The notes under the pieces are model-generated. The model worked only from the letters and a program-made list of their open reading frames with translations, was not told the DNA's origin and did not search any database. Of a stretch of 35,349 bases of DNA, positions 4,172 through 27,740 are shown one piece after another. The translations under genes and the position numbers were made by a program. Every line of letters begins with the position of its first letter. Position 1 is the first letter of the stretch. Origin of the DNA: a virus; the IMG/VR virus record IMGVR_UViG_3300025466_001071, positions 1-35,349 of that record; one strand, given 5' to 3'.

Positions 4172-4771
4172 ATGATTATTTACACGCTTTATGTAAAGAC
4201 CCATAATTTAACTGGGCTAAAATATTTTGGATTTACAACATCGACTGATCCTCACAAGTATAAAGGATCCGGAGTATATTGGAAACTTCATCTTGAAAAA
4301 CATGGATATGATTATACTACAGAAATTATAAGAGAATGTCAATCTAAAGAAGAATTAAAAGAATGGGGATTATATTATACTAATCTTTGGAATATTGTCA
4401 AAAGCAATAAATGGGCTAATCTCAAAGAAGAAATTGGAGATGGTGGTAGACAAAGTGAAGAAGTTAGGAAAAAAATTGGTGAGGCCGGTAAAGGTCGAAT
4501 ACCTTGGAATAAAGGTAAAAAGATGTGGACTGAGGAAGATAAAAAAAGAATAGGTGAGTTAAATAGATCTAGGGGTCCACAATCAAAAGAGACTATTGCT
4601 AAACGTGTGGCAAAGACAACCGGTAAAATTAGAACCGATGAACAAAAGAAAAGATCGTCTGATGCACAAAAAGGAAGAACATTAACTGAAGATCACAAAG
4701 CTAAATTGAAAAAGGCGGCACAGAATAGAACTGCACCGCCTTGGAATAAAGGACTTAAAAAGTCTAACTAA
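4172..4771 (+). CDS. GIY-YIG homing endonuclease with NUMOD3-type repeats
   Basis: This 199-aa protein begins with a GIY-YIG-like module (IIYTLYVKT, then LKYFGF). It continues with the K/Y-rich YKGSGVYWKLHLEKHG segment typical of phage Seg/I-Tev-like enzymes. The C-terminal half has tandem basic DNA-binding motifs of NUMOD3 type: SEEVRKKIGEAGKGR, SKETIAKRVAKTTGK and two PWNKG-K elements. An AAGGA ribosome site precedes the ATG. It is one of only two plus-strand genes and sits between two minus-strand genes, converging on and overlapping the gene at 4764 by 8 nt. That is the usual pattern of a free-standing mobile endonuclease. It probably cuts a related phage genome lacking it, at or near this junction. 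Confidence 0.88.
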   Translation: MIIYTLYVKTHNLTGLKYFGFTTSTDPHKYKGSGVYWKLHLEKHGYDYTTEIIRECQSKEELKEWGLYYTNLWNIVKSNKWANLKEEIGDGGRQSEEVRKKIGEAGKGRIPWNKGKKMWTEEDKKRIGELNRSRGPQSKETIAKRVAKTTGKIRTDEQKKRSSDAQKGRTLTEDHKAKLKKAAQNRTAPPWNKGLKKSN

Positions 4772-5168
4772 CTTCCGTTCTTCCGTTACCTAAGTTATTG
4801 ACATTAATGTATCCTGCGCCTCTACGGCTCATATCAACATTCTCTTCAGCGCCGATATTTCTACAAAGTTCTCCAAACCATTGATCAACGATCTCTTCGT
4901 CGGTAGCACCTTGATATCCTGCTGTTCTTAATTGTAACACAAAATACTCATTCCAGTCAAGCTCAAAAAATCCATTTCGAATATTATCTGGATTAACATG
5001 GGTATCAAGTACAGCTATCCAAGGTTCTTTAGCGGCTGTTGCTAATTCTTTTGGAGTTAATTTTGTGTCAGCTTCCGTTTTAGTTTTTTCTGCAAGTTCT
5101 GATTCTCTCTTTGCAAGTTCGGCTTCTAGCTTATCAACACCTAACATTTTTTTAATAAAATTTTTCAT
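4764..5168 (-). CDS. Conserved phage-type hypothetical protein with coiled-coil N-terminus (134 aa)
   Basis: Residues 1-35 form a charged coiled coil (LEAELAKRESELAEK). A conserved-looking globular part follows (AKEPWIAVLDTHVNPDN, ELDWNEYFVLQL, IVDQWFGELCRNIG, NVNNLG). The ATG at 5168 is preferred because it overlaps the queE stop as TAATG; the in-frame TTG at 5180 is less likely. It is the last gene of the long 13437-4764 operon. No function recognised. Confidence 0.6.
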   Translation of the reverse strand: MKNFIKKMLGVDKLEAELAKRESELAEKTKTEADTKLTPKELATAAKEPWIAVLDTHVNPDNIRNGFFELDWNEYFVLQLRTAGYQGATDEEIVDQWFGELCRNIGAEENVDMSRRGAGYINVNNLGNGRTEVS

Positions 5169-6019
5169 TACGTACCCCAAGCGTTGCGAAACAAAGGAAT
5201 TTGGAGTCGATCACTATATCTCCAACCTCTCTTCATTGCGGCCAATGCTACATTTTTGGCATTTAAATTGTAAACACTTTCAACACCGCCTACTGGCATT
5301 AAGTATACATGACCTTTGAATCCAGCGGCACGAAATGCACCTACTGCACATTCTGCATCTGCTATGTCTTGTTCTGTTGCAACTACAAACTTAAGATAAG
5401 CAGTTCCTACTTCTTCATACGCACATACAATTTCTGGCTTAATAGCATCTTCCCAACTTTCTCCACTGGCTGGAAGTTTAGCACTTACGCTAAATGTAAT
5501 TTCACGCTTTTGATGATCATACCGATTCCAATTTAACAAATATTCTCTAAACTCTGGTGTTAGTTTCTGAGTACCATTTGTTTCGAATGTAATTTCTTTT
5601 AGGTCTTGCATGTTGTCGTGATTTAGCAAGTCTGGGTAAGCCCTTTGCCAACCTAATAATGGTTCGCCGCCTGTAATAACTAGATGCTCATCTTTCCAAC
5701 TATTACTAGGTAGAATTTTCATAATACGATCTGCAATAGCATCACTTGTAAGCATTGGGCTTAGATCTTTAAAATCTGGATGCCAGCTTGCATAACTATC
5801 ACACCCTGTACTTACTAATGGCAAATCATTATAGTTAGTAAAGTGATGCACTATTGTGGCAATATCATCTGCTTCTGTGCTGAGTTCACCTCGAGACATA
5901 CCAAATCCTGCACACTTAAAATTACAACCAAATGTTCTTAAGAATACACTAGGTACTCCCATATATCGACCTTCTCCTTGAATTGAATAAAATAGTTCTG
6001 CTATTTTAATTTTTGACAT
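5168..6019 (-). CDS. queE: QueE-like 7-carboxy-7-deazaguanine synthase (radical SAM)
   Basis: The 283-aa protein has the QueE start YSIQGEGRYMGVPSVFLR, then GCNFKC, and a GGEP motif (VITGGEPLLGW) that binds SAM. QueE converts 6-carboxytetrahydropterin to 7-carboxy-7-deazaguanine in the preQ0 pathway. The iron-sulfur cluster motif is unusual. C32 and C36 are present, but the expected third Cys is F39 (CAGF). A candidate replacement, C73, lies in a long insert (STGCDSYASWH). The insert also makes the protein longer than the usual 210-250 aa. An AAGGT ribosome site precedes the ATG. With a DpdA-like and a QueD-like gene in the same operon, it probably supplies precursor for 7-deazaguanine in phage DNA. 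A related radical SAM activity cannot be excluded. Confidence 0.8.
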   Translation of the reverse strand: MSKIKIAELFYSIQGEGRYMGVPSVFLRTFGCNFKCAGFGMSRGELSTEADDIATIVHHFTNYNDLPLVSTGCDSYASWHPDFKDLSPMLTSDAIADRIMKILPSNSWKDEHLVITGGEPLLGWQRAYPDLLNHDNMQDLKEITFETNGTQKLTPEFREYLLNWNRYDHQKREITFSVSAKLPASGESWEDAIKPEIVCAYEEVGTAYLKFVVATEQDIADAECAVGAFRAAGFKGHVYLMPVGGVESVYNLNAKNVALAAMKRGWRYSDRLQIPLFRNAWGT

Positions 6020-6030
6020 CTTATACCTTT

Positions 6031-8025
6031 TTAAAATTTATAATTAACAGATAATCCAGCGGCTGTTTCGGTAAGGCCTTGTACCCCTTGGTAATTTTGA
6101 CGACTTTCAACAAATGCTAACATATGACTATTATTTTTGTTGGCAAATTTCCAATATCCACCTGCTCTCATTTCTTTAACACCTGCGGCTAAGTTAACAT
6201 TATTAGCATACATGATATTTCCACTGTTGTCAAATCCAGTTGGAATATTTGTTGAGGCCATTGCATGGTATACTGATACAGGTTGATACAACATAAATCC
6301 CAAAGAGTTTTCTTTGTTTATATGTCGTTCTGCACCCAATGACCAACTATAACTTAATACAGTACCTACATTGGTAATGTAATCTCCATGTGCGTTAGCA
6401 CTGGTAACACCATTGTGGAAGTTTGCATAAAGTTCTGTTTTGTCGTATACTTTGGAAAAGTTTACACCAACATAACTTGTAAGACTTTGACTACTTACAT
6501 TAATACTATTGGTATAATTTCCTAACCAAGTATTTTGTTCACTAAATGTACCAGCGGTAAATTTAAGATTGTCTTTGGTATACCCAACTTCGACCATTAA
6601 CGATTGATCTTGACTAGAATCTCTATTTGTATCACGATATGATGTAAATTCTAAATTGCCAATTTTTGATGTAGTGTAATCGGTATAGGTATTGAATTGT
6701 GTATATGGATTGTGAGTTTGATAAGGTAGTGCAACTTGCCTAGCATTAAACTCTTTTACAGGCATTCTAGTCTGCAATGATGTACCTTTGGTATAAAAAT
6801 CTCTTTGATATCCATCGAGCACCATTACACTAGATATTTTTCCTAAGCTGGCACTACCGCTGGTTACCAACACTGGACTTAGAGCTGGTCCTGTAGTTCT
6901 ACCTGTTGTGGGGATATTCAATGCACCTACTGGACTTGTTGCCGCGGCTAAATCAAGTAATCCCTGTCCATCGATAGCAACCTTATAATTAGGAATATTC
7001 TTATTTGCAGTTTGCAATAATAATTGAACAATGTTTGCTCCAGTCATCTTTGGCCATTCTTGATTTATAATTGCCACGGCACCCGAAATAACCGGCGCTG
7101 CCATACTAGTACCACTCATTGTTGTTGTACCGCCACCTACAGCAGTAGACACAACATTGGTACCTGGGGCCATTAAAAAGAACTGACTAATTTTATATTG
7201 ATCTTGACAGGTGTTATTAACAAAGTTCATACAAATAGTTCCAGCGGCATTACTACTAGGACTCAACATATTAAACTGAGTATTGTAATTTCCTGCAACA
7301 ATAACTCTACCACCAAACATTAATGAACCATTTGGATTAGTAGCTACTGCTAATTCACCATAACCAGATACATAGTTTAACCCACTGTTACCGGCCGCAA
7401 CTACAAGTACCATATTAGGATTTGTATTCATGGCAGGTAACCAATTGTTAGGATTCTCTGCTAATATCTTTGTCCAATAGTTGGGAGTATTTGTCATATT
7501 ACTAACAGTATATATCCCTGCAGATGCTAATTTAGCACTATAGTTGGTTACTAACTCTGATGACAAATTTACCACTGTGGCATTATTATTTCCTGCCCAA
7601 GCTATACCATTAATAACAGTAGCATCAAATGATACACCGTTGGCACCTGCAATTTTTCCAATTAAAAGATTTGCATTATAAGCAATCCCTTGAACACCAA
7701 TACCGTTAGCACTGGCAGCCGCTTCTCCTGTCACAAATGTTCCATGGCCATTTGCATCTTGTACACTTCCACTATTAGTAAAATCCTGCGTACCAATAAT
7801 CCTATTTCCAAATTCTGTTGATTTTAAATCAATGCCGGTATCAAGAATAGCAATAGTACTACCTGCACCCGTAAATCCTCGAGCATAAGCACTGCTGGCA
7901 TTTATAGAATTTAGTATTTTGCTGGTATTATATTCTACAGTTTGGTAGTTAACAGGATTTGTTGATTGTGCGTTTGCGACCAATGCTGAACATGCCAGTG
8001 CAAGTATGCTGAGTTTGAATTTCAT
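6031..8025 (-). CDS. Secreted subtilisin-like serine protease with C-terminal beta-barrel-like domain
   Basis: This 664-aa protein starts with a signal peptide (basic start, hydrophobic core, AxA site at residues 17-19, ANA|Q). The peptidase S8 domain follows with a full catalytic set: D62 in ILDTGID, H94 in NGHGTFVTG, the oxyanion N213 in AAGNSG and S307 in SGTSMAAP. Residues about 400-664 are strand-rich, with alternating polar/hydrophobic runs and a terminal Phe (LSVNYKF), as in outer-membrane barrels and autotransporters. Subtilase autotransporters are known bacterial surface proteins. One inside a phage operon, between MazG-like and QueE genes with gaps of only 10-11 nt, is unexpected. 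It may have come from the host. Plausible roles are changing the host surface, superinfection exclusion, or scavenging. These are inference. Confidence 0.85.
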   Translation of the reverse strand: MKFKLSILALACSALVANAQSTNPVNYQTVEYNTSKILNSINASSAYARGFTGAGSTIAILDTGIDLKSTEFGNRIIGTQDFTNSGSVQDANGHGTFVTGEAAASANGIGVQGIAYNANLLIGKIAGANGVSFDATVINGIAWAGNNNATVVNLSSELVTNYSAKLASAGIYTVSNMTNTPNYWTKILAENPNNWLPAMNTNPNMVLVVAAGNSGLNYVSGYGELAVATNPNGSLMFGGRVIVAGNYNTQFNMLSPSSNAAGTICMNFVNNTCQDQYKISQFFLMAPGTNVVSTAVGGGTTTMSGTSMAAPVISGAVAIINQEWPKMTGANIVQLLLQTANKNIPNYKVAIDGQGLLDLAAATSPVGALNIPTTGRTTGPALSPVLVTSGSASLGKISSVMVLDGYQRDFYTKGTSLQTRMPVKEFNARQVALPYQTHNPYTQFNTYTDYTTSKIGNLEFTSYRDTNRDSSQDQSLMVEVGYTKDNLKFTAGTFSEQNTWLGNYTNSINVSSQSLTSYVGVNFSKVYDKTELYANFHNGVTSANAHGDYITNVGTVLSYSWSLGAERHINKENSLGFMLYQPVSVYHAMASTNIPTGFDNSGNIMYANNVNLAAGVKEMRAGGYWKFANKNNSHMLAFVESRQNYQGVQGLTETAAGLSVNYKF

Positions 8026-11886: not shown

Positions 11887-13437
11887 TTAGGCTATTACTT
11901 CTTCTTCAAGTTTTCTTAATTCATCATCGTCTGGATTGGCCAGATCAATTTCCTCTGAATTTGTTACTTGTTCAATTTCAAACAAATTATTAAATGTATT
12001 TTGTTTAGGACCGCCCTGTAGTCGCGCACCTTCTAAACTGCGTAGGAAAGGACCAGCTTGATCTATCATAGCAAATGCAGATGCTTTATCGGGTGTGTTA
12101 AACAAGTCTTCAACTAATCTATCAAAATATAAAATATTGCGTGGTACCCAATCTGAGTACTCATCACTCATATCACCTGACTTAACTTTCTTCCATGCAC
12201 GCCAGTTAATCTTATTACGTGTCTTTTCAATTTCAATATCCATTAATTGCTGTGCACGTTGTACAGCAACAATATGGCAATAAACATTATGACCCATCAT
12301 AAGAGCATAGGCAAAACTATCCCAAGAAGTTTTACCTTCTTTGCCTATCTTGTTTAGCATACCTGGTGCATAATGACAAATGTCTGCCATTGTTAGTCTG
12401 CGGCCAATTTCTGACTCGAACGGGAATGGTATGTCGCTTCCAGCAAGGGCTTTATTGTCTGGGGCTTTGTCCATAATAACACTCCACCTTTTTGGCGTGT
12501 GGACTGCATTGGTATAGACAAGTCCGTGCGCTGTTGCGATGAAGGGACTTGCGCAGTCAAAAGATATGGTAAGTTCTTCATTAATGTGTTTCCTGATTTG
12601 TCGTTGAATTAATGTTAGATAGCATGACCAATCTAACTGTGCTGTACCCAAGAAGTGGATCCAGTTTTTGCCTTCCAGCAAACCTTCATCTCTAAGTGTC
12701 ATAAGACGCTTAAGAGTAATGTCCATTTTACACATATTAGCACCACCAAAGGCCCAACCTTCTGCTTCTCTACCAGCATAAGGACCTTTCGGATCACTAA
12801 ATTCTTTTACACCGTTGTACCATTTCTCAGCAGTTTCCCAGTCACTGCCTTGTAGTACATTAAGCCATTTAGTTTGACCTAGTCTATTATCTAAGAAATA
12901 CTTATTATTAAATCTAGTCTTATCTAGGCAGTCATCAAATGTTTTTAGTCCTGTTTTCGGACTGTGAATATGATCACAGGCCCATGTAGGAACATCAAGC
13001 ATCATTGACCAGTCGGCAGTTACTTCTAACCACTCTAAAATTTGTTGACGAGTCTTGTTTGCACTTGCACCTTCAAAATCCAACCAATCAAATTTAAGAA
13101 CACCTTTACCAATCTGATATCCACCGGAGTCACCTAAGATCATTGTGTTAGCACGATCGCGTTGTTGAATCATAGATTCTTGCGTTAGACTTTTATTCAA
13201 ATCTAATTGTGCATGACCTGCTGAATACAAACCATACTTGTAAGTAAAGTATCCTTGTTCTGGATTAAGAAAGTTCATTCCTTCAATGCCACGATCAAAC
13301 CCTGCCGGAATACGATCTTTAGGAATAAACTCTTCTAATCTTTGTTTAGCAACATAGGTACTATAAAACGAGCTAATGGCTGGAAGGTACACAGCATGAT
13401 TTTTTTGTAATGGTGTTAGGTTAACTGGTGGATTCAT
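11887..13437 (-). CDS. dpdA: DpdA-like TGT paralog (DNA 7-deazaguanine transglycosylase)
   Basis: The 516-aa protein carries the landmarks of the tRNA-guanine transglycosylase barrel. DSGGYQ at 103-108 matches TGT DSGGFQ (substrate-binding Asp). A second Asp is at D148 (MLDVPT), VLQG is at 194-197, GWAFGG at 227-232 matches TGT GyxxGG, HFLG is at 261-264, and SFDCASP with D294 is the candidate nucleophile region. It is longer than TGT (about 375 aa) and otherwise divergent, as expected for DpdA, the phage and Dpd-system paralog that swaps guanine in DNA for a 7-deazaguanine. QueE and a QueD-like protein in the same operon support DNA as substrate. Its start overlaps the upstream gene by 17 nt. 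A tRNA-directed TGT is less likely. Confidence 0.75.
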   Translation of the reverse strand: MNPPVNLTPLQKNHAVYLPAISSFYSTYVAKQRLEEFIPKDRIPAGFDRGIEGMNFLNPEQGYFTYKYGLYSAGHAQLDLNKSLTQESMIQQRDRANTMILGDSGGYQIGKGVLKFDWLDFEGASANKTRQQILEWLEVTADWSMMLDVPTWACDHIHSPKTGLKTFDDCLDKTRFNNKYFLDNRLGQTKWLNVLQGSDWETAEKWYNGVKEFSDPKGPYAGREAEGWAFGGANMCKMDITLKRLMTLRDEGLLEGKNWIHFLGTAQLDWSCYLTLIQRQIRKHINEELTISFDCASPFIATAHGLVYTNAVHTPKRWSVIMDKAPDNKALAGSDIPFPFESEIGRRLTMADICHYAPGMLNKIGKEGKTSWDSFAYALMMGHNVYCHIVAVQRAQQLMDIEIEKTRNKINWRAWKKVKSGDMSDEYSDWVPRNILYFDRLVEDLFNTPDKASAFAMIDQAGPFLRSLEGARLQGGPKQNTFNNLFEIEQVTNSEEIDLANPDDDELRKLEEEVIA

Positions 13438-19317: not shown

Positions 19318-19683
19318 TTAAGATTTCTTGGACATCCAGTTGCTGACTGGGCTGACTTTATGTACATCTTCAGTTTCTCTACTACCCTTGGTGCTGAGTT
19401 TTTTTGGAGTATACCCAAACTTTTTTAGACTGTTGGCAATGATATCACGCTCTGCTTGACTATATCCAACCATAACCATATCATCTGCAAATTGGCCTGT
19501 TACAGGATAATCATGTGTATCATCGGGACTGCCGGCCATGTGCACACCTAATCTATATTTGTGATAATAATTAGTAGGTCCTATCGGTAATCCGGGTACG
19601 CCGACACTGCTGACATTAGGAACTGCTTCCTTTTGACTATCAGTCCATTCTTGGTCTTCGGTGATAAATTCTTTGGCTCTCAT
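19318..19683 (-). CDS. Probable capsid-targeted internal protein, paralog A (121 aa)
   Basis: It begins MRAKEFITE|D, very like the capsid-targeting peptide of T4 internal proteins (MKTYQEFIxE), which prohead protease gp21 cuts after Glu (rule I/L-x-E|). The rest is clearly related to the protein at 21317-21679: YRLGVHMAGSPD, MVMVGYSQAERDI, GSRETED and SPVSNWMSKK each have a counterpart there. That makes a paralog pair flanking one gene. Start overlaps the upstream stop by 1 nt (TAATG). Packaging and injection with the DNA are inferred. The function of the mature domain is unknown. Confidence 0.6.
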   Translation of the reverse strand: MRAKEFITEDQEWTDSQKEAVPNVSSVGVPGLPIGPTNYYHKYRLGVHMAGSPDDTHDYPVTGQFADDMVMVGYSQAERDIIANSLKKFGYTPKKLSTKGSRETEDVHKVSPVSNWMSKKS

Positions 19684-21320
19684 TATTTTTTCTTGCTGGG
19701 ATTCTTAGCACCATAACTAGCCGCAATAGCCATTTGACGAACTTTCTCAGGACTCTTGTTTTTGAACTGATGATGTCCTTTGGCATTAGGAGTTTTGGCT
19801 GCTTTGGCAAAATCATCAATATAGGCCTTTACAGGTGCATTCTTAGGAATTTTCTCAGCAAGGCGAGCGTGTAACTCGGCCATGTAAGGATCGTTAGTCT
19901 CTTGTTTAAGTGCCGCTCTTTTAACCATCTTGCGGATAAGTTCTTTGTCTTCTTTTTCATCAGGATGCCCTGCTTCTTTGTAAACATGTCCTTGTTCGTG
20001 TTGGCTTTGGATGTATTCAGCTACTGTGACCATGTTTTGTTTAGCCATGCTGATCTTTTCTTCTACCCACTCTGGCATATTTTCACCAGCAATCAATACA
20101 TCTGCTAGATCTTTACAGGCTCTGATAATAGTGTGTAGATTGTTTTCAACCATATCTACTTCGTCATCGTATTCGTTGTATTCATCACCCTCTGGCATTT
20201 CTTTGTCAACTCCTTTGCCTGGCTGGATTTGTGAAGCGACAGCAGTGGCATATCCGCCCATGCCCCAGCCTTCTTCCATCGGTGACTCACCAAACCGTGC
20301 TCTGTATGAATTTGGAGACATGGTATATCTGCTGCCGATAACTTTTTGGCCTTCACCTGCTAACATTAAATCATACATCATCTTAATCACCGCTACTGGA
20401 TTTTTAAGATCATCTATGCGATTGTAAAAAAAACTTATCTTTTCTGGTTTCATCCTACGGACAGGCTTGCCTTTGATCAATTCCTTGGCCTGTGCTTTGA
20501 GAGTTTCTAGGTCCCGTATTTTTTCCAATCTTTTGATATCGTCTATGTTAAAATTATCATCAGTTCCATCGTTAGGGCCTTCCGCTACACCTTGTTTTGA
20601 TTTTAAGTTGGCTATGATTTTTTCAAGATTTTTGATTTTGACATCATGTGCTCCATTGGCATTGAATTTTTTATATTTGGCCAATTCTCGCTCGTAGTTT
20701 TTGATGTTAGCAACAGTTCGATCATCACCTTCCGCCACACCTTTTTCTCTCTTCATTACACCGGCATGATATCCACTGTCGTAATCATTGGTCATTGGTC
20801 CATGAATATTGCTGGCACGAGGATTTCTATGACCACGCAGGCCGTCTTGAAATCCATCACGATATGCTGAACTTGTTGATGGTGCTGAAGGCTTTGATGG
20901 AGTATCTCTCTGTGCAATCATATCCTTGGTGCGTTGACGCTCTTGATCGGGTGATCCTTGAACACGATGTTTGATACCTTTGTCTTTCAACATACTTAGG
21001 AACTGTGATTTTAGGTCATCCATTTCTTCCATATAAGGTTTCTTATGTTTTGCGACACCTTGTTTCATTTCTTTCTTTTTATCTTTGTGCTGACCGGCAC
21101 CGCTCATTTTGGCATTCTTGGCAACAAAATTACGGGGCTTTGGAGCTTCTTTATCTTGTGCTTCTTGATTAATAAGATTATCACCACGCTTACGAACTAC
21201 GCCTATTGGTTTAGATATACTAGCTCCTGATCCAGAACTAATAGAACCTGCCGTTACACTCTCTAATGTATAAACAGTTACATCGTTTGATTTTGTTACT
21301 TTGAATTCGTTGTTTTTCAT
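19683..21320 (-). CDS. Probable virion polyprotein with internal prohead-protease sites (545 aa)
   Basis: A hydrophilic, low-complexity protein built of modules joined by GVAE|G sites at 194-197 and 244-247, plus an altered copy GVAK at 88-91. These fit the T4 gp21 cleavage rule (hydrophobic-x-E|A/G). Between them are a YRDGFQDGLRG/YDSGYHAG repeat-like part, a coiled coil, and a C-terminal basic module (KNKSPEKVRQMAIAASYGAKNPSKKK). No MRAKEF leader is seen; it begins MKNNEFKVTK with a Ser/Gly-rich segment. The ATG overlaps the stop of paralog B (ATGA). I do not recognise any enzymatic domain. A capsid-internal protein set released by cutting is the reading I favour. Confidence 0.55.
   Translation of the reverse strand: MKNNEFKVTKSNDVTVYTLESVTAGSISSGSGASISKPIGVVRKRGDNLINQEAQDKEAPKPRNFVAKNAKMSGAGQHKDKKKEMKQGVAKHKKPYMEEMDDLKSQFLSMLKDKGIKHRVQGSPDQERQRTKDMIAQRDTPSKPSAPSTSSAYRDGFQDGLRGHRNPRASNIHGPMTNDYDSGYHAGVMKREKGVAEGDDRTVANIKNYERELAKYKKFNANGAHDVKIKNLEKIIANLKSKQGVAEGPNDGTDDNFNIDDIKRLEKIRDLETLKAQAKELIKGKPVRRMKPEKISFFYNRIDDLKNPVAVIKMMYDLMLAGEGQKVIGSRYTMSPNSYRARFGESPMEEGWGMGGYATAVASQIQPGKGVDKEMPEGDEYNEYDDEVDMVENNLHTIIRACKDLADVLIAGENMPEWVEEKISMAKQNMVTVAEYIQSQHEQGHVYKEAGHPDEKEDKELIRKMVKRAALKQETNDPYMAELHARLAEKIPKNAPVKAYIDDFAKAAKTPNAKGHHQFKNKSPEKVRQMAIAASYGAKNPSKKK
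20578..20591 (-). repeat. GVAE seam repeat, copy 2 (GGTGTAGCGGAAGG)
   Basis: One of five copies of GGTGTRGCGGAAG in coding frame as Gly-Val-Ala-Glu. Codon third positions are also conserved (GGT, GTA/GTG, GCG, GAA). Other copies are at 20728, 22109, 22784 and 23753. Confidence 0.75.
20728..20741 (-). repeat. GVAE seam repeat, copy 1 (GGTGTGGCGGAAGG)
   Basis: Same element, 150 nt upstream of copy 2 in the same gene, with the GTG valine variant shared with the copy at 23753. Confidence 0.75.
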
Positions 21321-21679
21321 TTCTTTTTCATCCAGTTACTTACAGGACTTGTCGTATTTGTGTCCTTTAACTCTTTACTACCACCAGGTGTTAATCTAAC
21401 ACGCGGTGTTCCGATTAAATTTGCGGCAGCATCTAATATATCTTCATCTGCTTGAGTGTAACCTATAGTAACCATTTTAAGACCAGTTGGACCAGCTACA
21501 TCCATCTTTTGATCAGGCATACCGGCAACAGCAACACCAAATCTATAGGCCATGTATCCTGAACTATTATCTAAATCAGGATAGAGATGAGCGTTGACCA
21601 TACTGCTAACAGAGTCGGGATGGAATCCTTTTGGACCTGCATAGTCTTTAGCTTCACCTATAAATTCTTTAGCTCGCAT
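21317..21679 (-). CDS. Probable capsid-targeted internal protein, paralog B (120 aa)
   Basis: It begins MRAKEFIGE|A, which fits the T4 internal-protein targeting peptide and gp21 cut rule even better than paralog A, because Ala follows Glu. The mature part shares YRFGVAVAGMPD, MVTIGYTQADEDI, GSKELKD and SPVSNWMKKK with the protein at 19318-19683. It has its own AGGAA ribosome site and a late-type box (21700-21707) upstream. Expression late and packaging inside the head are inferred. No enzyme motif is visible. Confidence 0.6.
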   Translation of the reverse strand: MRAKEFIGEAKDYAGPKGFHPDSVSSMVNAHLYPDLDNSSGYMAYRFGVAVAGMPDQKMDVAGPTGLKMVTIGYTQADEDILDAAANLIGTPRVRLTPGGSKELKDTNTTSPVSNWMKKK

Positions 21680-21699
21680 TTTATATTTCCTATTTGAGT

Positions 21700-21707
21700 T
21701 ATTTATT
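21700..21707 (-). promoter_or_regulatory. Candidate late promoter box (AATAAATA)
   Basis: 7-of-8 match to TATAAATA on the minus strand, 21 nt upstream of the paralog B ATG with an AGGAA ribosome site between. It overlaps the end of the preceding gene. Confidence 0.45.
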
Positions 21708-23103
21708 CACAATGCCACTTGCGTAAACTCTTGTTTATTCGGCTGTTTGGATCTCGTTTAGTTTTAGCTCCTGTACGATGTTTCTTCATACCTTTCATCC
21801 GAGCACAGAAACTCTTACGGCGTTTAGAGGCTTTGCTGCCTTTTTTGAGTTTGCTGGGTTTAGTTGTTACAGCAGTTTGTAAGTGGCTGCCAGGATGGCT
21901 TCTTCTATAACTAGCCACACCTTTTTTATTCAATCCACCGTTTTTATTCTTGCCTGATGATTTTTGCCATGCTTCGGCTTCACTTAAAAGTTCTTCATCA
22001 TCAACTTCTTCAAGATCTTCCCATATAGCATCACTGTCAACACCATGCTGTTCAGCCCAATACTCAATCATGGATTCGATGATGTTGAACTGTTCTTCTA
22101 ATTCTAAGTCTTCCGCTACACCTTCATCTGCAATAGCTTTTTTTATGATGTTGACAACATTGGGATTAGTCTTAAGTTGTTTTAGGGCATGTTCAGCATG
22201 AGCTTTATCTTTGAATCCGCCTTGAACTACTGCCCACGAATTTGTACCAAAAAAGCCACCAGACGGATACCATATCTCTGATTTTCCAGTATCTGTGCGA
22301 TCTACTACTTTTAATTTATTTGGGTCTATCGGTGGAGGATTATCTTTCTCAGCTTGTGCCTTGGCCATCATTTGTTTGTGTGCTTGAACATTGGCTTTCT
22401 CATGTGCTCTAGGCTCTTGACCAATCATATCTCTCAACAAGTCTGCCCAGCTCCAACCTTCCATTTCAGGATCGTGGAATATTTCTTCAAACTCGCCTAC
22501 TACTTCACTTAGATCTTCTTCAACAAAATATTTTGGAATCAAACCTTTTTTCTCAGCTATGTCTATCATGTAAGATTCTAAAGCATCATCGTCTTCATTA
22601 GCAAAATGTTCTTTAGTATCTGGATCCATCTTTTTAATAATATCCATACCAAACTTAAACGCATGTTTGTAACCTGGCATGTTATTCATACTCATAACAG
22701 TTTTTGGGTCAACTTTAAGTGGTTTTTTATCTTGGCGTGTGCCTAATGCTTTATTCATAAATCCTGTAAAATTAGGATCATGTGCTTCCGCTACACCTTC
22801 GTTAGGTTTACAGTTACGCACCTGTCCGCCATTTTTACCTTTCTTGGTACCTACAGCGTGTTTGCCTGGCCAGCAACGAGTAAACCCATTAGCGTCCTTT
22901 TGACCCTTCTTGATCTCATTGAGATTACCGTGAGTTTGACACATGCCACAATCGGAGCATACACTTTCCATGGTAATACTTTCATTGTGTTTTTTCTTTC
23001 CGGCACAATGAGCCTTTTGACTGAAGCCTTTAGGATGACTACAGTTAATGCTAGATTTGTATTTTTGGCTCCACTTTTCAGTTAAGAATTCATTTGCTCT
23101 CAT
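21703..23103 (-). CDS. Capsid-targeted Cys-rich/basic polyprotein (466 aa), DUF6321-like C-terminus
   Basis: Leader MRANEFLTE|K matches the capsid-targeting peptide pattern. Internal GVAE|A (103-106) and GVAE|D (328-331) sites and LLSE|A near 375 would divide it into about four pieces. Piece 1 has seven Cys (C21, C33, C49, C52, C55, C77, C98) with CSDCGMC, so a zinc-binding domain. The middle is acidic and helical. The last 80 residues are very basic with HPGSHLQTAVTTKPSKL and KSFCARMKGMKK, a motif I associate with DUF6321 phage proteins. A packaged nucleic-acid-binding protein is likely by charge; specific function is unknown. It has a strong GAAAAT leader but no clear Shine-Dalgarno. Confidence 0.6.
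   Translation of the reverse strand: MRANEFLTEKWSQKYKSSINCSHPKGFSQKAHCAGKKKHNESITMESVCSDCGMCQTHGNLNEIKKGQKDANGFTRCWPGKHAVGTKKGKNGGQVRNCKPNEGVAEAHDPNFTGFMNKALGTRQDKKPLKVDPKTVMSMNNMPGYKHAFKFGMDIIKKMDPDTKEHFANEDDDALESYMIDIAEKKGLIPKYFVEEDLSEVVGEFEEIFHDPEMEGWSWADLLRDMIGQEPRAHEKANVQAHKQMMAKAQAEKDNPPPIDPNKLKVVDRTDTGKSEIWYPSGGFFGTNSWAVVQGGFKDKAHAEHALKQLKTNPNVVNIIKKAIADEGVAEDLELEEQFNIIESMIEYWAEQHGVDSDAIWEDLEEVDDEELLSEAEAWQKSSGKNKNGGLNKKGVASYRRSHPGSHLQTAVTTKPSKLKKGSKASKRRKSFCARMKGMKKHRTGAKTKRDPNSRINKSLRKWHCE
22109..22124 (-). repeat. GVAE seam repeat, copy 4
   Basis: GAAGGTGTAGCGGAAG on the minus strand, encoding E-G-V-A-E-D. It shares a 16-nt identical core with the copy at 22784-22799, 675 nt away. 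Confidence 0.75.
22784..22800 (-). repeat. GVAE seam repeat, copy 3
   Basis: GAAGGTGTAGCGGAAGC on the minus strand, encoding E-G-V-A-E-A at the end of the Cys-rich first module of the same protein. Confidence 0.75.
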
Positions 23104-23104
23104 A

Positions 23105-23413
23105 TTATTTTCCTACTGGTTTTTCATGTGTAAGATAAGGACGACTAAACCACAGTCGGAACCATTCTGGGGTTCCTGGCTGTATGTTGTGCTCCTTCAT
23201 CAACTTGACTTTTTCCATAGCAGTAACTGTTATGTTACTACCTTTATTTACTTCTGCTGTGTGGGCACGATATTCCTGTAGTCTAACCTCACCACCTAGC
23301 CCTGCTAGATACTGTACAACTTTTAATTCTTGTATAGGATCCGTGGGATCAAGATAGCAGTCATCATCGCTATCTTGGGGAATATGCTCTGTGGTTATCT
23401 TATACTGTTTCAT
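23105..23413 (-). CDS. Conserved phage-type hypothetical protein (102 aa)
   Basis: An acidic protein of unknown family. It has DDCYLDPTDPIQELKVVQYLAG, a two-helix-looking LQEYRAHTAE/VTAMEKVKLMKEH middle and an aromatic PGTPEWFRLWFSRPYL end. Its ATG overlaps the stop of the 1122-aa protein (ATGA), and it ends 1 nt before the next gene, so it is translated with the capsid-protein set. No targeting leader or GVAE site is seen, so it may act in the cell rather than the head. Confidence 0.6.
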   Translation of the reverse strand: MKQYKITTEHIPQDSDDDCYLDPTDPIQELKVVQYLAGLGGEVRLQEYRAHTAEVNKGSNITVTAMEKVKLMKEHNIQPGTPEWFRLWFSRPYLTHEKPVGK

Positions 23414-26400
23414 TTTAGTTGAGATTCAATAAGACGAGCAATAGCTTCTGCTTTGGCTAATTCCCAGTTTTCACCAATGTTGTAACCTTGGTCACTGCGT
23501 TGACTGGTATAACTACCTTGTCCTGCATAACCTCTTTTATTGTTGGCATAACTACCACTGTCAAATGATTCAGTTTCTTTGGGATTATGCTGTTTTTCCA
23601 GATAGTTTTTAACTTTTAACAATTCACTTTGATTGAGATCATCGAGATGAGCCTTACCTGTGAGTCTTTTTGTAAGGCGTAGGAAACTTGGTTCATCGTC
23701 CCATTTGATGCCTTTGCAGTCTGCGAGTTTATGAATAGTATTTGGGGTAATGCCTTCCGCCACACCTTGGATGTCACGCTTTTTCAATTCTTGATGTAGT
23801 GCTTGAAGTTTGTTATCACTGCGAGCAATAGCGTTTCGAATATCACCTGCAACCTTCTTAGGCAGTTTAGCTAATACACTGCTGACAATTTGATCTACTT
23901 GTACATTTTGTTTGCCCATAGTATCACTCTTGGGTGCTTTGACTTTTGGCTCATCAAAATCATCGTTATCATAACCGGCTTCTACTTCGATCTTGCTTAG
24001 ATAATTTTTATACTCATGATAACGATTTCCCCAGTTGTCTGCAAACTGTGTTAGAGCCCCGCTCTTCATTTTGTGGCCCATATTAAACAATATGGTTGGC
24101 AACTGCTTGCTGATCTCATTGAAACTTATTTTGTGTTCGCGGTCTTCACTGGCATCTTTGAGGAAGTATATCAACGCCTGTGAATACTTAGGAGCTTGCT
24201 TGGTCAGTGCATATAGTTCAGCCTGTAGTTTGTTAAAGTAGAAATCATTGAACCAACGACTGCCTACACCACCTGCTACCATAGCAAAGCCTTTTAAGTC
24301 ACCACGACCATCTACATAACGCTTGGCCATGGCTTTGAGTTGTTCAAATACTTGAGCAATATACTTACCGTGATCTGCAATAGTTTTTACGGTACCTTCT
24401 AAACTATTGGCTTCTGCTAATCCATGTTTCTTTTCCCAATCATACTCATCTGGATTATGATAGATTTTTTTGTTGGCTGTTGGACCTACTGGTTTTTGTT
24501 GCTTGCCTATTTTCATAAGTTCGGCATAGTCATCGGGAGTAAGACGCTTAGGTTTAGGTGCTTCTGGTTTTGTTTTTAGACCAAAAATCTCTGCTATGTC
24601 TGCATCATCATCTGATTTCTGTTGTTGTGGAAAAAATTTAGAATTATACACAAAATAAACGCCATCTTGTTCTTCATACTTCCAACCTGGGAAAGTCTGT
24701 AGCATTTTTCTAGTCAATGCTGTGTAGAGTTTTCTCCGACTGGGTTCTGCGGCCTGGAATATCACAAAAGTCAGTTTATGTTTTTTCACATACTGAGCAA
24801 TAGCATTATAGACAATACCGAATACTTCTGCGGCCGCACCTGTACCTTCTATACCCTGCTTACCATATCCGACCCCTGGCTTAGGTTCTTGTATAAATTC
24901 AATAAAACGACCTAGATCAGGATCGCCGTCAGCATTGTCAAAAGTATCAAAATCATATGGTTGTACCTCATCAGGAGCGGCATGAAACCCCATGATACTT
25001 AATTGGTAAGGAATACCATTGCTGGCCACAAAATTCAAATTTGCTAAAGTATCATCTCCACTCCATTTAGCCTGATTAGATTTAGCAGGTTTGGTATTCA
25101 TCAACTCTGATAAATTGTCATCATCTTGGTTTCTGCGTAGTTGAGACATACTCTCACCTCCAACAAAGTCGCCTGCACGAGCTGGACGATGTTTTGATTG
25201 ATTCCATTGACCTGCAGGGCCTAGTTTATTTTTCTTACTACCTGCAAAGTTACTTGCTGGCATCATAGTTTCTTTGGTCTTTTTTACTTTAGGAGTAGGA
25301 GTCATACCTGCCTTGACATCTGCCATTAGCTGTTGTGCTGTGGCATCATCTAATGAACCGGGAACTCCAGATTTGAATGTAGCAAAATCATCATCCATTG
25401 CGGCTTGACGCATTTTAGTTCCGCTGATCCCTGAAGCATCATCTGCATCAGGATCTCGATCTATTTTAACAACTTTAATAGAATCAAAGTTATAGTCTCT
25501 ACCGTTATAGTCATTTAATAATTTTTCAAATTCTTCGGCACGACTACCACCTGCTATCATAATAATATTACGGTACTTTTGATTTAAGTATTTGGCAGCT
25601 TCTATCGGAGTACGGACAGCGTCAGTGGCAGGTTGGAAATTTGTTCCAGGGAACATACGAGTTAGATATCCCATCTTTTGATCTATACTGAGAGGATTTT
25701 TTAATTTCTCCCCAGGTGTCTTGCCTACTGTACGACTAACATAGATAACATAAGGACAGTGATTTTGTTCTGCTGTTTGTTTTACAGCATTGACTAGCAA
25801 TTCATGACCGATAGTTGGAGGTTGCAGTCTTCCAAATGCAAATACTACTGTGCTAGGGCCAGCTGTTTCTATCAGTGCTCGCAACAGTCTCTTTGACTCT
25901 CCAAATGTTTGTTTGATTTTATCTAATGCGGCTTCTTTACCGGCACCTTTTGCGGTACCTACTTCACCACTCTTAACTGTGATCATACTACCAAATACTC
26001 CTTGCATCCTAGAATTGCTTCGAGGATTTTTAATTACTTGTTTGCTTTGAGCTAATAATTGATCAAAGTTTGCATCTAGATTGTATTGATACAATAACTT
26101 TTGAATGTCTTCGAAGTTTCTAGTACTCCATACAACATCTCTACTGAGTTGTTTGTACTGCCCTTGTGCCAATAATTCTGGATCGTAAGTTACTAGTCTT
26201 AATTGTAGTTCAACACTGCTTAGGTTAAACTCATACTCTTGATTTTGTTCTATATTAGGTTGTGCATTAATACCCAACTTCTTGAACAGCACAGCAGGTT
26301 CAGTTTCAATAGTTGCAATCTTAACTAGGCCTAGGATCAATCCCTGTTTCTCAGCAGGCCAATCTAAGAATAGTTGTTTGAATGTTGCTTCAGTTTGATC

Positions 26401-26778
26401 CAAGGCAACAATATTATCAATTTGAGCACTATAGCCCAATGAATCATCATGATAGCGAACACTGACCAACTCACCGGCATTGTAACTACGCTTGCCTGCA
26501 TGTTTTGCAGAACTGAAAGGAACAATAACTGTTTCGGGTTGGCGTTGTAGGAATGCCTGTAATTCTTTCTTAACAGTGGCTTTGTCTTTGTCGCTTTTAA
26601 TATGTACAATGATATCAATGTCACCAAAGTCATTCTTAGACATATCACTATTATAACTGCCGCTGGGATTGAAACCTACAAATCCTGGGAACTGACTGAT
26701 TAGGTCTTTATAAGATTTTAGGAATTGTTGAAAGTCTTGACGACTCTTTACACGATCTGCACCTGCTACTCCGCTCAT
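23410..26778 (-). CDS. Multidomain nucleotidyltransferase / NMNAT-like / possible acetyltransferase protein (1122 aa)
   Basis: Domain 1 (1-190) is a Pol-beta-type nucleotidyltransferase: GS at 40-41, GDIDIIV with D53 and D55, and a third Asp in QID (D121). Domain 2 (about 308-480) is a HIGH-type nucleotidylyltransferase of the NMNAT/cytidylyltransferase group: FAFGRLQPPTIGH (H325), AGGSR near 409 and ISGTKMR at 451-457. Domain 3 (about 575-740) has GIEGTGAAAEVFG and a terminal strand pattern that could be a GNAT acetyltransferase, which is tentative. The rest is helical. GLAE|A (786-789) and GVAE|G (1005-1008) fit prohead-protease cutting. It overlaps its neighbours by 4 nt each side. A packaged, injected set of nucleotide-handling enzymes is the inference; substrates are unknown. 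Confidence 0.75.
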   Translation of the reverse strand: MSGVAGADRVKSRQDFQQFLKSYKDLISQFPGFVGFNPSGSYNSDMSKNDFGDIDIIVHIKSDKDKATVKKELQAFLQRQPETVIVPFSSAKHAGKRSYNAGELVSVRYHDDSLGYSAQIDNIVALDQTEATFKQLFLDWPAEKQGLILGLVKIATIETEPAVLFKKLGINAQPNIEQNQEYEFNLSSVELQLRLVTYDPELLAQGQYKQLSRDVVWSTRNFEDIQKLLYQYNLDANFDQLLAQSKQVIKNPRSNSRMQGVFGSMITVKSGEVGTAKGAGKEAALDKIKQTFGESKRLLRALIETAGPSTVVFAFGRLQPPTIGHELLVNAVKQTAEQNHCPYVIYVSRTVGKTPGEKLKNPLSIDQKMGYLTRMFPGTNFQPATDAVRTPIEAAKYLNQKYRNIIMIAGGSRAEEFEKLLNDYNGRDYNFDSIKVVKIDRDPDADDASGISGTKMRQAAMDDDFATFKSGVPGSLDDATAQQLMADVKAGMTPTPKVKKTKETMMPASNFAGSKKNKLGPAGQWNQSKHRPARAGDFVGGESMSQLRRNQDDDNLSELMNTKPAKSNQAKWSGDDTLANLNFVASNGIPYQLSIMGFHAAPDEVQPYDFDTFDNADGDPDLGRFIEFIQEPKPGVGYGKQGIEGTGAAAEVFGIVYNAIAQYVKKHKLTFVIFQAAEPSRRKLYTALTRKMLQTFPGWKYEEQDGVYFVYNSKFFPQQQKSDDDADIAEIFGLKTKPEAPKPKRLTPDDYAELMKIGKQQKPVGPTANKKIYHNPDEYDWEKKHGLAEANSLEGTVKTIADHGKYIAQVFEQLKAMAKRYVDGRGDLKGFAMVAGGVGSRWFNDFYFNKLQAELYALTKQAPKYSQALIYFLKDASEDREHKISFNEISKQLPTILFNMGHKMKSGALTQFADNWGNRYHEYKNYLSKIEVEAGYDNDDFDEPKVKAPKSDTMGKQNVQVDQIVSSVLAKLPKKVAGDIRNAIARSDNKLQALHQELKKRDIQGVAEGITPNTIHKLADCKGIKWDDEPSFLRLTKRLTGKAHLDDLNQSELLKVKNYLEKQHNPKETESFDSGSYANNKRGYAGQGSYTSQRSDQGYNIGENWELAKAEAIARLIESQLK
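23753..23766 (-). repeat. GVAE seam repeat, copy 5 (GGTGTGGCGGAAGG)
   Basis: Identical over 14 nt to the copy at 20728-20741, 3 kb away in a different gene. It marks the border of the last, helical, 114-residue module. Confidence 0.75.
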
Positions 26779-27740
26779 TGTAGTGTCCTTAATGCTGAGT
26801 TGTCTGGTAAAAATTTACCTGTGAGTCCTAGACTGTCTTTACGCTTACGCCACTCGTCTTGCATGTCGTCTGGAATATCAACGCGAGTACTATCTAGTAT
26901 CTTAAAATAGATATTCAATAAAGTATTGTAATCTTCTGGACGCATCTTGGCTTTGAATAGTGCGTGAAGTTTATAATAGTCTTCAGCATCTGCTTGAGAT
27001 ATGTTAAATCCCAACACCTTACCTAATACTGCTAGAGCCTGATCAGGATCACGGGCAATAACTTCACCTGTTTGTTTGTCTTTAACACCACTGACATGAT
27101 TAAATGATAGCCCGGCTACTTGGAATGCCGCTAGCATCAGTTGGGTACGATGTAGTCCTTTGACATTACTGCCTTTAGGATAAGCCGCTGAATAATAACT
27201 GAATTTCAGCCAATTAAGATCTCCAATCATCCAATCAATCTGAACACCGCTACCTACATGCTGTCCAGCATCATCTATCTGTGGGAATAATCCAAAGATG
27301 TTTCCATCAGTGACTTTCTTTTCATCACAGTATAGAGTAGGTGCATTACTGTTGATGTAAAGTGTTAATTCTTTTAAGAACGCTTTCATACGAAGTTGTT
27401 CCGGTGTGCTTGTACGAGCACGCTTCTGTAATGCTGTGAATTCTGCGGCAACTGCTTTTGGATCTACACCCCAAGCGGCTATACTTTCATCACTCATTGT
27501 TTTATCTAAAATATCGTGAGCACTGACACCTAGATCGATATCACCTGATACATCTTTTTTACGAACACTGCCTAATGGATGAAAATGTTGTTCATCAAAT
27601 ATTTTGGCCTTACGGGGAAATAGGCTTTTTAATTCTGCAAAGTATGCGTTTAGTGTAGGAGTAATGTGCTCCATCTTAATAGCAGTAGTCTTACCAGCAA
27701 AAACATTACCACCTTCGGTTAATAGTTCTTTAATACGCAT
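26775..27740 (-). CDS. Capsid-targeted Pol-beta-type nucleotidyltransferase (321 aa)
   Basis: It begins MRIKELLTE|GG, a variant of the capsid-targeting leader that fits the L-x-E|G cut rule. The body has the nucleotidyltransferase signature GSVRKKDVSGDIDLGV (two Asp of the metal site) and a third Asp in VQIDWMIGD, the same order as in domain 1 of the next gene. The C-terminal half is helical (GLHRTQLMLAAFQ, AEDYYKLHALF). Such enzymes transfer a nucleotide to protein, RNA or small molecules. T4 injects modifying enzymes (Alt) from its head in a similar way. Substrate cannot be predicted. It overlaps the next gene by 4 nt (ATGA). Confidence 0.7.
   Translation of the reverse strand: MRIKELLTEGGNVFAGKTTAIKMEHITPTLNAYFAELKSLFPRKAKIFDEQHFHPLGSVRKKDVSGDIDLGVSAHDILDKTMSDESIAAWGVDPKAVAAEFTALQKRARTSTPEQLRMKAFLKELTLYINSNAPTLYCDEKKVTDGNIFGLFPQIDDAGQHVGSGVQIDWMIGDLNWLKFSYYSAAYPKGSNVKGLHRTQLMLAAFQVAGLSFNHVSGVKDKQTGEVIARDPDQALAVLGKVLGFNISQADAEDYYKLHALFKAKMRPEDYNTLLNIYFKILDSTRVDIPDDMQDEWRKRKDSLGLTGKFLPDNSALRTLQ

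Follow-up and report, generated by a model that had tools for sequence, protein, structure and literature searches.

Candidate T4-type leaders and repeated in-frame joints in the predicted head cargo of a T4-related phage

Why do four genes of one viral contig begin with nearly the same nine residues, and what would so short a leader do for the proteins behind it? We examined this question in IMG/VR record IMGVR_UViG_3300025466_001071, the whole of which, a 35,349-base fragment of a viral genome with nearly all genes on the minus strand, is the window analysed here. The phage is T4-related, and the leaders, together with a second element, internal joints reading GVAE, are found in the T4-related phage group. 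We put a probability of roughly 0.8 on a reading in which the leaders mark packaged cargo cut by a gp21-type protease, with the joints probably also cut and possibly recombining.

A nine-residue leader on unrelated proteins

The initial annotation had placed T4-type leaders at 19683, 21679, 23103 and 27740. All four are present there, on the minus strand and with ATG starts, and share the consensus M-R-x-x-E-[FL]-[IL]-x-E. The leaders and three of their proteins are listed here (lengths in amino acids, aa); the fourth protein, of modular build, is listed further below.

19657..19683, minus strand: leader MRAKEFITE (then D) of gene 19318-19683
19318..19683, minus strand: leader-bearing protein of 121 aa, in the leader's most abundant cargo family
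21653..21679, minus strand: leader MRAKEFIGE (then A) of gene 21317-21679
21317..21679, minus strand: leader-bearing protein of 120 aa
23077..23103, minus strand: leader MRANEFLTE (then K) of the 466-aa protein, gene 21703-23103
27714..27740, minus strand: leader MRIKELLTE (then G) of gene 26775-27740
26775..27740, minus strand: leader-bearing protein of 321 aa, probable polymerase-beta-type nucleotidyltransferase (LGSVRKKDVSGDIDLGV)

Genes 19318-19683 and 21317-21679 are paralogues (38% identical), whose 120-aa family gives a poor predicted structure (predicted template modelling score, pTM, 0.39). Genes 21703-23103 and 26775-27740 are unrelated to this pair and to one another.

The pattern M[KR]xx[EDQ][FL][IL]xE was scanned over the window and 80 related viral loci, 1252 genes in all. 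In 88 of these genes it lies at or close to the start, and nowhere does it occur deeper inside a protein (0 in 257,750 residues); these loci were retrieved by similarity to one leader-bearing protein, and the leader is found in them on unrelated proteins as well. The leader thus extends to related genomes, where the initial annotation had proposed to look for it. Exactly at the start of the longest open reading frame, the motif occurs in 66 genes, against a column-shuffle mean of 1.0 and maximum of 5, an excess that chance does not account for. A further sample, of at least 120 stretches, came from a DNA-pattern scan of viral contigs. Across all loci, 255 leader-bearing frames carry 51–55 unrelated cargo families among the matches listed. 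An alignment of 54 mostly unrelated leader proteins has M1, E5 and E9 invariant and R2, A3 and F6 nearly so. In 223 leader instances, again among the matches listed, the residues are fixed and the third codon positions are free (GAA/GAG, TTT/TTC, ATT/ATC/ATA), which argues that the leader is selected and works as a peptide.

The leaders cluster in adjacent genes and two of the four are paralogous, as might be expected of plain shared ancestry or of a DNA or RNA signal such as a translation initiation or repressor site. The free wobble bases led us to reject a nucleic acid signal, however, and the unrelated cargo to reject common descent. In addition, the homologue of 26775-27740 in Flavobacterium phage immuto lacks a leader and starts M/GGNVFS, exactly at the predicted cut (marked here and below by a slash). 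We regard this pair of explanations as very improbable.

The leader resembles the T4 capsid-targeting sequence as the initial annotation had suggested: it ends in EFIxE, measures 9 residues versus 10, and its positions match T4 F7 (targeting) and I8 and E10 (processing). In the T4 IPIII leader, residues 4 and 7 target the protein, and residues 8 and 10 are required for processing (PMC9026906). T4 Alt is cut at ITE-6 and LTE-619 (PMC5694885). The likeness to T4 holds for every sequence feature compared, including also the presence of one leader on unrelated cargo, a gp21-type protease alongside gp23 in relatives, and an LxE at the gp23 maturation site of relatives. In the gp23 of 19 long related records, the region aligned to the T4 cut FLTE/AE reads LxE followed by NASAG, SATAG, SSAG or similar. 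In some small leader proteins, the residues directly behind the leader Glu are those that begin mature gp23, in register: FIKE/TASAGATTSGNIA, beside YLAE/SATAGATSAGNVA of gp23, and LTE/SATAGATSSGNIAT.

The same 19 records encode a gp21-type S77 protease; one search detected it in 6 of 29 long related records and a second in 16 of 23, with three records common to both. The gp21-like protease that the initial annotation invoked is thus present in related contigs, and has no match in the 35-kilobase (kb) fragment. S77 protease and gp23 are also encoded together in three isolated relatives: HTVC008M, the Methylophilales phage Melnitz, and immuto. Six related loci (L150, L166, L129, L167, L281 and L220) have a leader or joint in contigs of 300–525 kb that also encode this group's gp21 and gp23, so the system extends to jumbo phages. 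Locus L256 (G032, 342,865 bases) has a GVAEG joint and gave no S77 or Gp23 match; its head genes are possibly missing, or its head diverged.

In T4, targeting can be separated from processing: Asp at leader position 10 stops cutting and leaves packaging unaffected (PMC9026906). The leader might likewise bring cargo to the prohead core and stay on, or serve another head-assembly interaction. We consider this improbable, given that E9, a processing residue in T4, is invariant in the 54 aligned proteins and coincides with the gp23 site.

The leaders are very probably T4-type capsid-targeting propeptides, and these sequence features support placing them in the T4 class. For the window's own phage we infer packaging, cutting and injection as follows. 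The 9-residue leader would bring its cargo into the prohead core; a gp21-type protease would then cut after the Glu of [hydrophobic]-x-E and free the mature protein, which would stay in the head and enter the next host together with the DNA.

The domains found behind the leader in related loci include ADPrib_exo_Tox, ART-PolyVal, Kinase-PolyVal, GNAT, Sigma70_r4, M48 peptidase and GH19 lysozyme/chitinase. Judging from T4 Alt, such activities are what injected early proteins should have. Of ten single cargoes mapped to Pfam, most gave no match. One gene (L010:359-1093) joins the leader MRATEFITE (then V) to a sigma-70 region 4 domain and may encode an injected transcription factor. At L069:13265-13936, L108:2992-3609 and L266, a twin-arginine-like stretch (RRDLLRGVGAAA, RRGFLGALGAGAMA) follows the leader Glu immediately, placed as if leader cutting would expose an export signal; two proteins of the joint-bearing set have a Pfam TAT_signal match. 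At L290:7855-8886, a joint stands directly behind the leader (MRATEFII-EGVAE-GLEHADKL).

GVAE joints in modular proteins

Three window proteins contain five internal GVAE joints, which the initial annotation had overlooked along with the gp23-like start of gene 19683-21320 and the 1122-aa cytidylyltransferase fusion. These features are as follows.

19683..21320, minus strand: 545-aa modular protein between leader genes, joints at aa 194 and 244
21261..21320, minus strand: its N-terminal region MKNNEFKVTKSNDVTVYTLE, then SVTAG, with likeness to the gp23 maturation site
20730..20741, minus strand: GVAE joint GGTGTGGCGGAA in the 545-aa protein
20580..20591, minus strand: GVAE joint GGTGTAGCGGAA in the 545-aa protein
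21703..23103, minus strand: 466-aa protein built of leader, WSQKYK module, GVAE, AHDP module, GVAE and DUF6321 end
22786..22797, minus strand: GVAE joint GGTGTAGCGGAA in the 466-aa protein
22111..22122, minus strand: GVAE joint GGTGTAGCGGAA in the 466-aa protein
23410..26778, minus strand: 1122-aa cytidylyltransferase fusion, no leader
24412..24420, minus strand: degenerate joint LAE before ANSLEGTV, aa 787-789 of the 1122-aa protein
23755..23766, minus strand: GVAE joint within CAAGGTGTGGCGGAAGGC in the 1122-aa protein

The two joints of the 545-aa protein bracket a 50-aa module (GDDRTVANIKNYERELAKYK..) that is also found within a different protein of locus L008. At the degenerate boundary of the 1122-aa protein, relatives read GVAEGSLNE/ANSLKG. 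Proteins of related loci have up to seven joints, spaced by a median of 78 residues (minimum 42), and match boundaries between related proteins fall at the joints. One junction exists in several states: a single joint in L022, two joints enclosing different modules in the window and L014, and no joint in L015 and L023.

Conservation of the joint extends to its DNA. Of 116 joint sites in loci retrieved without using the joint, 87 (75%) have the exact GGTGTGGCGGAA, compared with about 1% expected from codon use, a difference that led us to reject protein selection alone. The nearly invariant sequence is CAAGGTGTGGCGGAAGGC, about 18 base pairs long, and the conserved block has sharp edges, running from about six bases before the joint to fourteen after it. 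Wobble-base identity in homologous pairs is 0.97 at the joint versus 0.67 in the flanks, and 0.83 versus 0.52 (35 pairs). All exact joint cores (104/104) in the loci then collected lie in the sense orientation and the GVAE frame. In a separate scan with a 17-base joint string, the GVAE frame was the longest of six in 159 of 163 viral versus 45 of 119 bacterial matches; every bacterial match (119/119) was single and scattered, consistent with chance. A general DNA element was rejected on the sense, in-frame cores and the scattered bacterial matches. The joint's likeness to tRNA-Leu, just 9 bases in that of S-SM1, was taken as coincidence.

At module boundaries with neither GVAE nor leader, [VILMF]xE is kept in 54% of cases per family (108 families), versus 1–7% at other offsets; the pooled values are 42% versus 2–15%. 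Where the conserved DNA is absent, the hydrophobic residue and Glu are kept and the G and A drift (GMAE, SVAE, DVAE, QLNE, LLSE). Part of this retention could be due to descent from GVAE, which accounts less easily for forms such as QLNE or LLSE. Fifteen module families are found both behind a leader and, in a different protein, behind GVAE. The exact register is the commonest case in five of the fifteen, and several of the rest have a second LxE or VxE at the leader's register (LDE/LS, LNE/DVG, VTE/Y, LEE/IDRR).

The joints could also be uncut recombination scars or flexible linkers, the leaders still being capsid-targeting propeptides and the modular proteins remaining whole in the head. Joint DNA conserved far beyond the needs of protein selection would fit this, as would Val at P3 and the one-, two- and no-joint versions of a junction, which resemble the outcome of recombination between direct repeats. 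Yet the hydrophobic P3 and the P1 Glu survive loss of the joint DNA, modules behind GVAE elsewhere sit behind a cleavable-type leader, and the joint is always sense and in frame. We find uncut joints unlikely, and judge it likely from the residue patterns that the internal joints are protease sites. The protease that removes the leader would probably cut GVAE and other hydrophobic-x-E joints too, so that some cargo genes would encode packaged polyproteins with modules of roughly 40–200 residues.

How the joint DNA stays nearly identical is a weaker part of the proposal. Homologous recombination at the joint may swap modules in frame, and conservation through such recombination and module turnover is a tentative explanation, at or a little under even odds; another DNA-level constraint, or recent spread, may be responsible. 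It is possible, and slightly more doubtful, that a cassette system operates, with CAAGGTGTGGCGGAAGGC (about 18 base pairs) serving both as an in-frame module exchange point and as the codons of a head-protease site.

Several observations weigh against packaged, gp21-cut cargo with cut joints. The exact register shared by leader and GVAE is the commonest in 5 of the 15 families only, a family-level count that weakens the register claim; the 308 of 355 pairs that share it are dominated by one module. GVAE has Val at P3, where T4 prefers Ile or Leu. The start of the 545-aa protein, VYTLE/SVTAG, matches the rule imperfectly with Thr at P3, as seen beside the related-phage gp23 site LAE/SATAGATSAGN. 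The 1122-aa protein has no leader. The immuto nucleotidyltransferase homologue is leaderless although that phage has an S77 protease, which suggests that packaging of this enzyme is not universal. The window itself has no gp21 match, though a fragment may lack the gene.

Nucleotidyl- and cytidylyltransferases and other genes of the window

The product of gene 26775-27740 is a probable polymerase-beta-type nucleotidyltransferase. A GS-x(n)-DxD motif is seen by eye, and the fold matches of its model (pTM 0.51) are DNA polymerase beta entries, weak at E 0.05 or worse; Pfam gave no match to this protein. The 1122-aa protein consists of an N-terminal nucleotidyltransferase-like domain (by eye), a cytidylyltransferase at aa 305-501 and then modules. 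Neither the nucleotidyltransferase nor the 1122-aa protein had a meaningful match in PDB sequence searches.

The cytidylyltransferase domain of 23410-26778 is homologous to cyanophage T4-GC190, which was found by mass spectrometry in purified virions of cyanophage S-SM1 (PMC3037559). The S-SM1 protein starts MKKFSAFLNE/AERSF, and the presence in virions of a homologue with this leader is the best evidence from outside the present sequences for the T4-type interpretation. Melnitz has MKKFSEIIE/ARG ahead of the domain; the window carries its leader on the adjacent nucleotidyltransferase (26775-27740), not on the cytidylyltransferase protein. The window shares with S-SM1, HTVC008M and Melnitz a homologous domain in a DNA polymerase neighbourhood, and with S-SM1 and Melnitz leader-like starts, ending there in FLNE or IIE, the S-SM1 protein being in virions. 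It differs in that HTVC008M and Melnitz have neither MRAxEFIxE leader nor GVAEG joints, and in the fusion of its domain to a nucleotidyltransferase-like domain and extra modules.

Four further genes were noted. A 664-aa protein (6031-8025, minus strand) has by eye a signal peptide, an S8 subtilase-like stretch and an outer-membrane-like C-terminus, unusual in a phage. Genes 11887-13437 (transglycosylase-like, DpdA-type) and 5168-6019 (QueE-like), both on the minus strand and assigned by eye with no Pfam match at 0.001, suggest 7-deazaguanine DNA modification. A long plus-strand gene candidate (4172-4771) is by eye GIY-YIG homing endonuclease-like.

Relation to known packaged proteins

With T4 IPI, IPII, IPIII and Alt, the system shares a 9–10-residue leader ending EFIxE, the hydrophobic-x-E rule, a single leader on unrelated cargo, an ADP-ribosyltransferase among that cargo (as Alt) and encoded gp21 and gp23, here in related contigs. 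It differs in reading MRAxEFIxE rather than MKTYQEFIxE, in having dozens of cargo families rather than few, and in its internal GVAE joints and module exchange, where T4 has only the extra Alt cut at LTE-619. In phiKZ and SPN3US, a prohead protease likewise cuts packaged ejection proteins after Glu, at S/A-x-E (PMC5694885). Their protease, however, is of another family, their propeptides are often long, and repeated joints or module exchange are not described there. Polyvalent proteins (PMC5512222) are also phage proteins with several domains and are presumed to be injected, and ART-PolyVal and Kinase-PolyVal are present on leader-bearing cargo of related loci; those are large enzymatic fusions, whereas here small modules with a repeated joint stand behind a capsid-targeting-type leader. 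Window proteins contain no such Pfam domain, which was found only in leader proteins of related loci.

The leader and joint motif strings were not found in the open-access literature searched, nor was any account of polyproteins that are packaged and have internal sites. Injected proteins act in a cell before any other phage protein, and to our knowledge few are known outside T4, T7, N4, P1 and the phiKZ group. Because it is legible in sequence, the leader makes many hypothetical proteins of uncultured phages testable candidates for injected effectors, among them ADP-ribosyltransferases, acetyltransferases, a kinase and a sigma factor. Should the joints be cut, packaged polyproteins of exchangeable modules would let effectors be carried and evolve in a manner absent from the papers found. 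If the cassette system is true, it would give T4-related phages a reshufflable, protease-released cargo of injected peptides.

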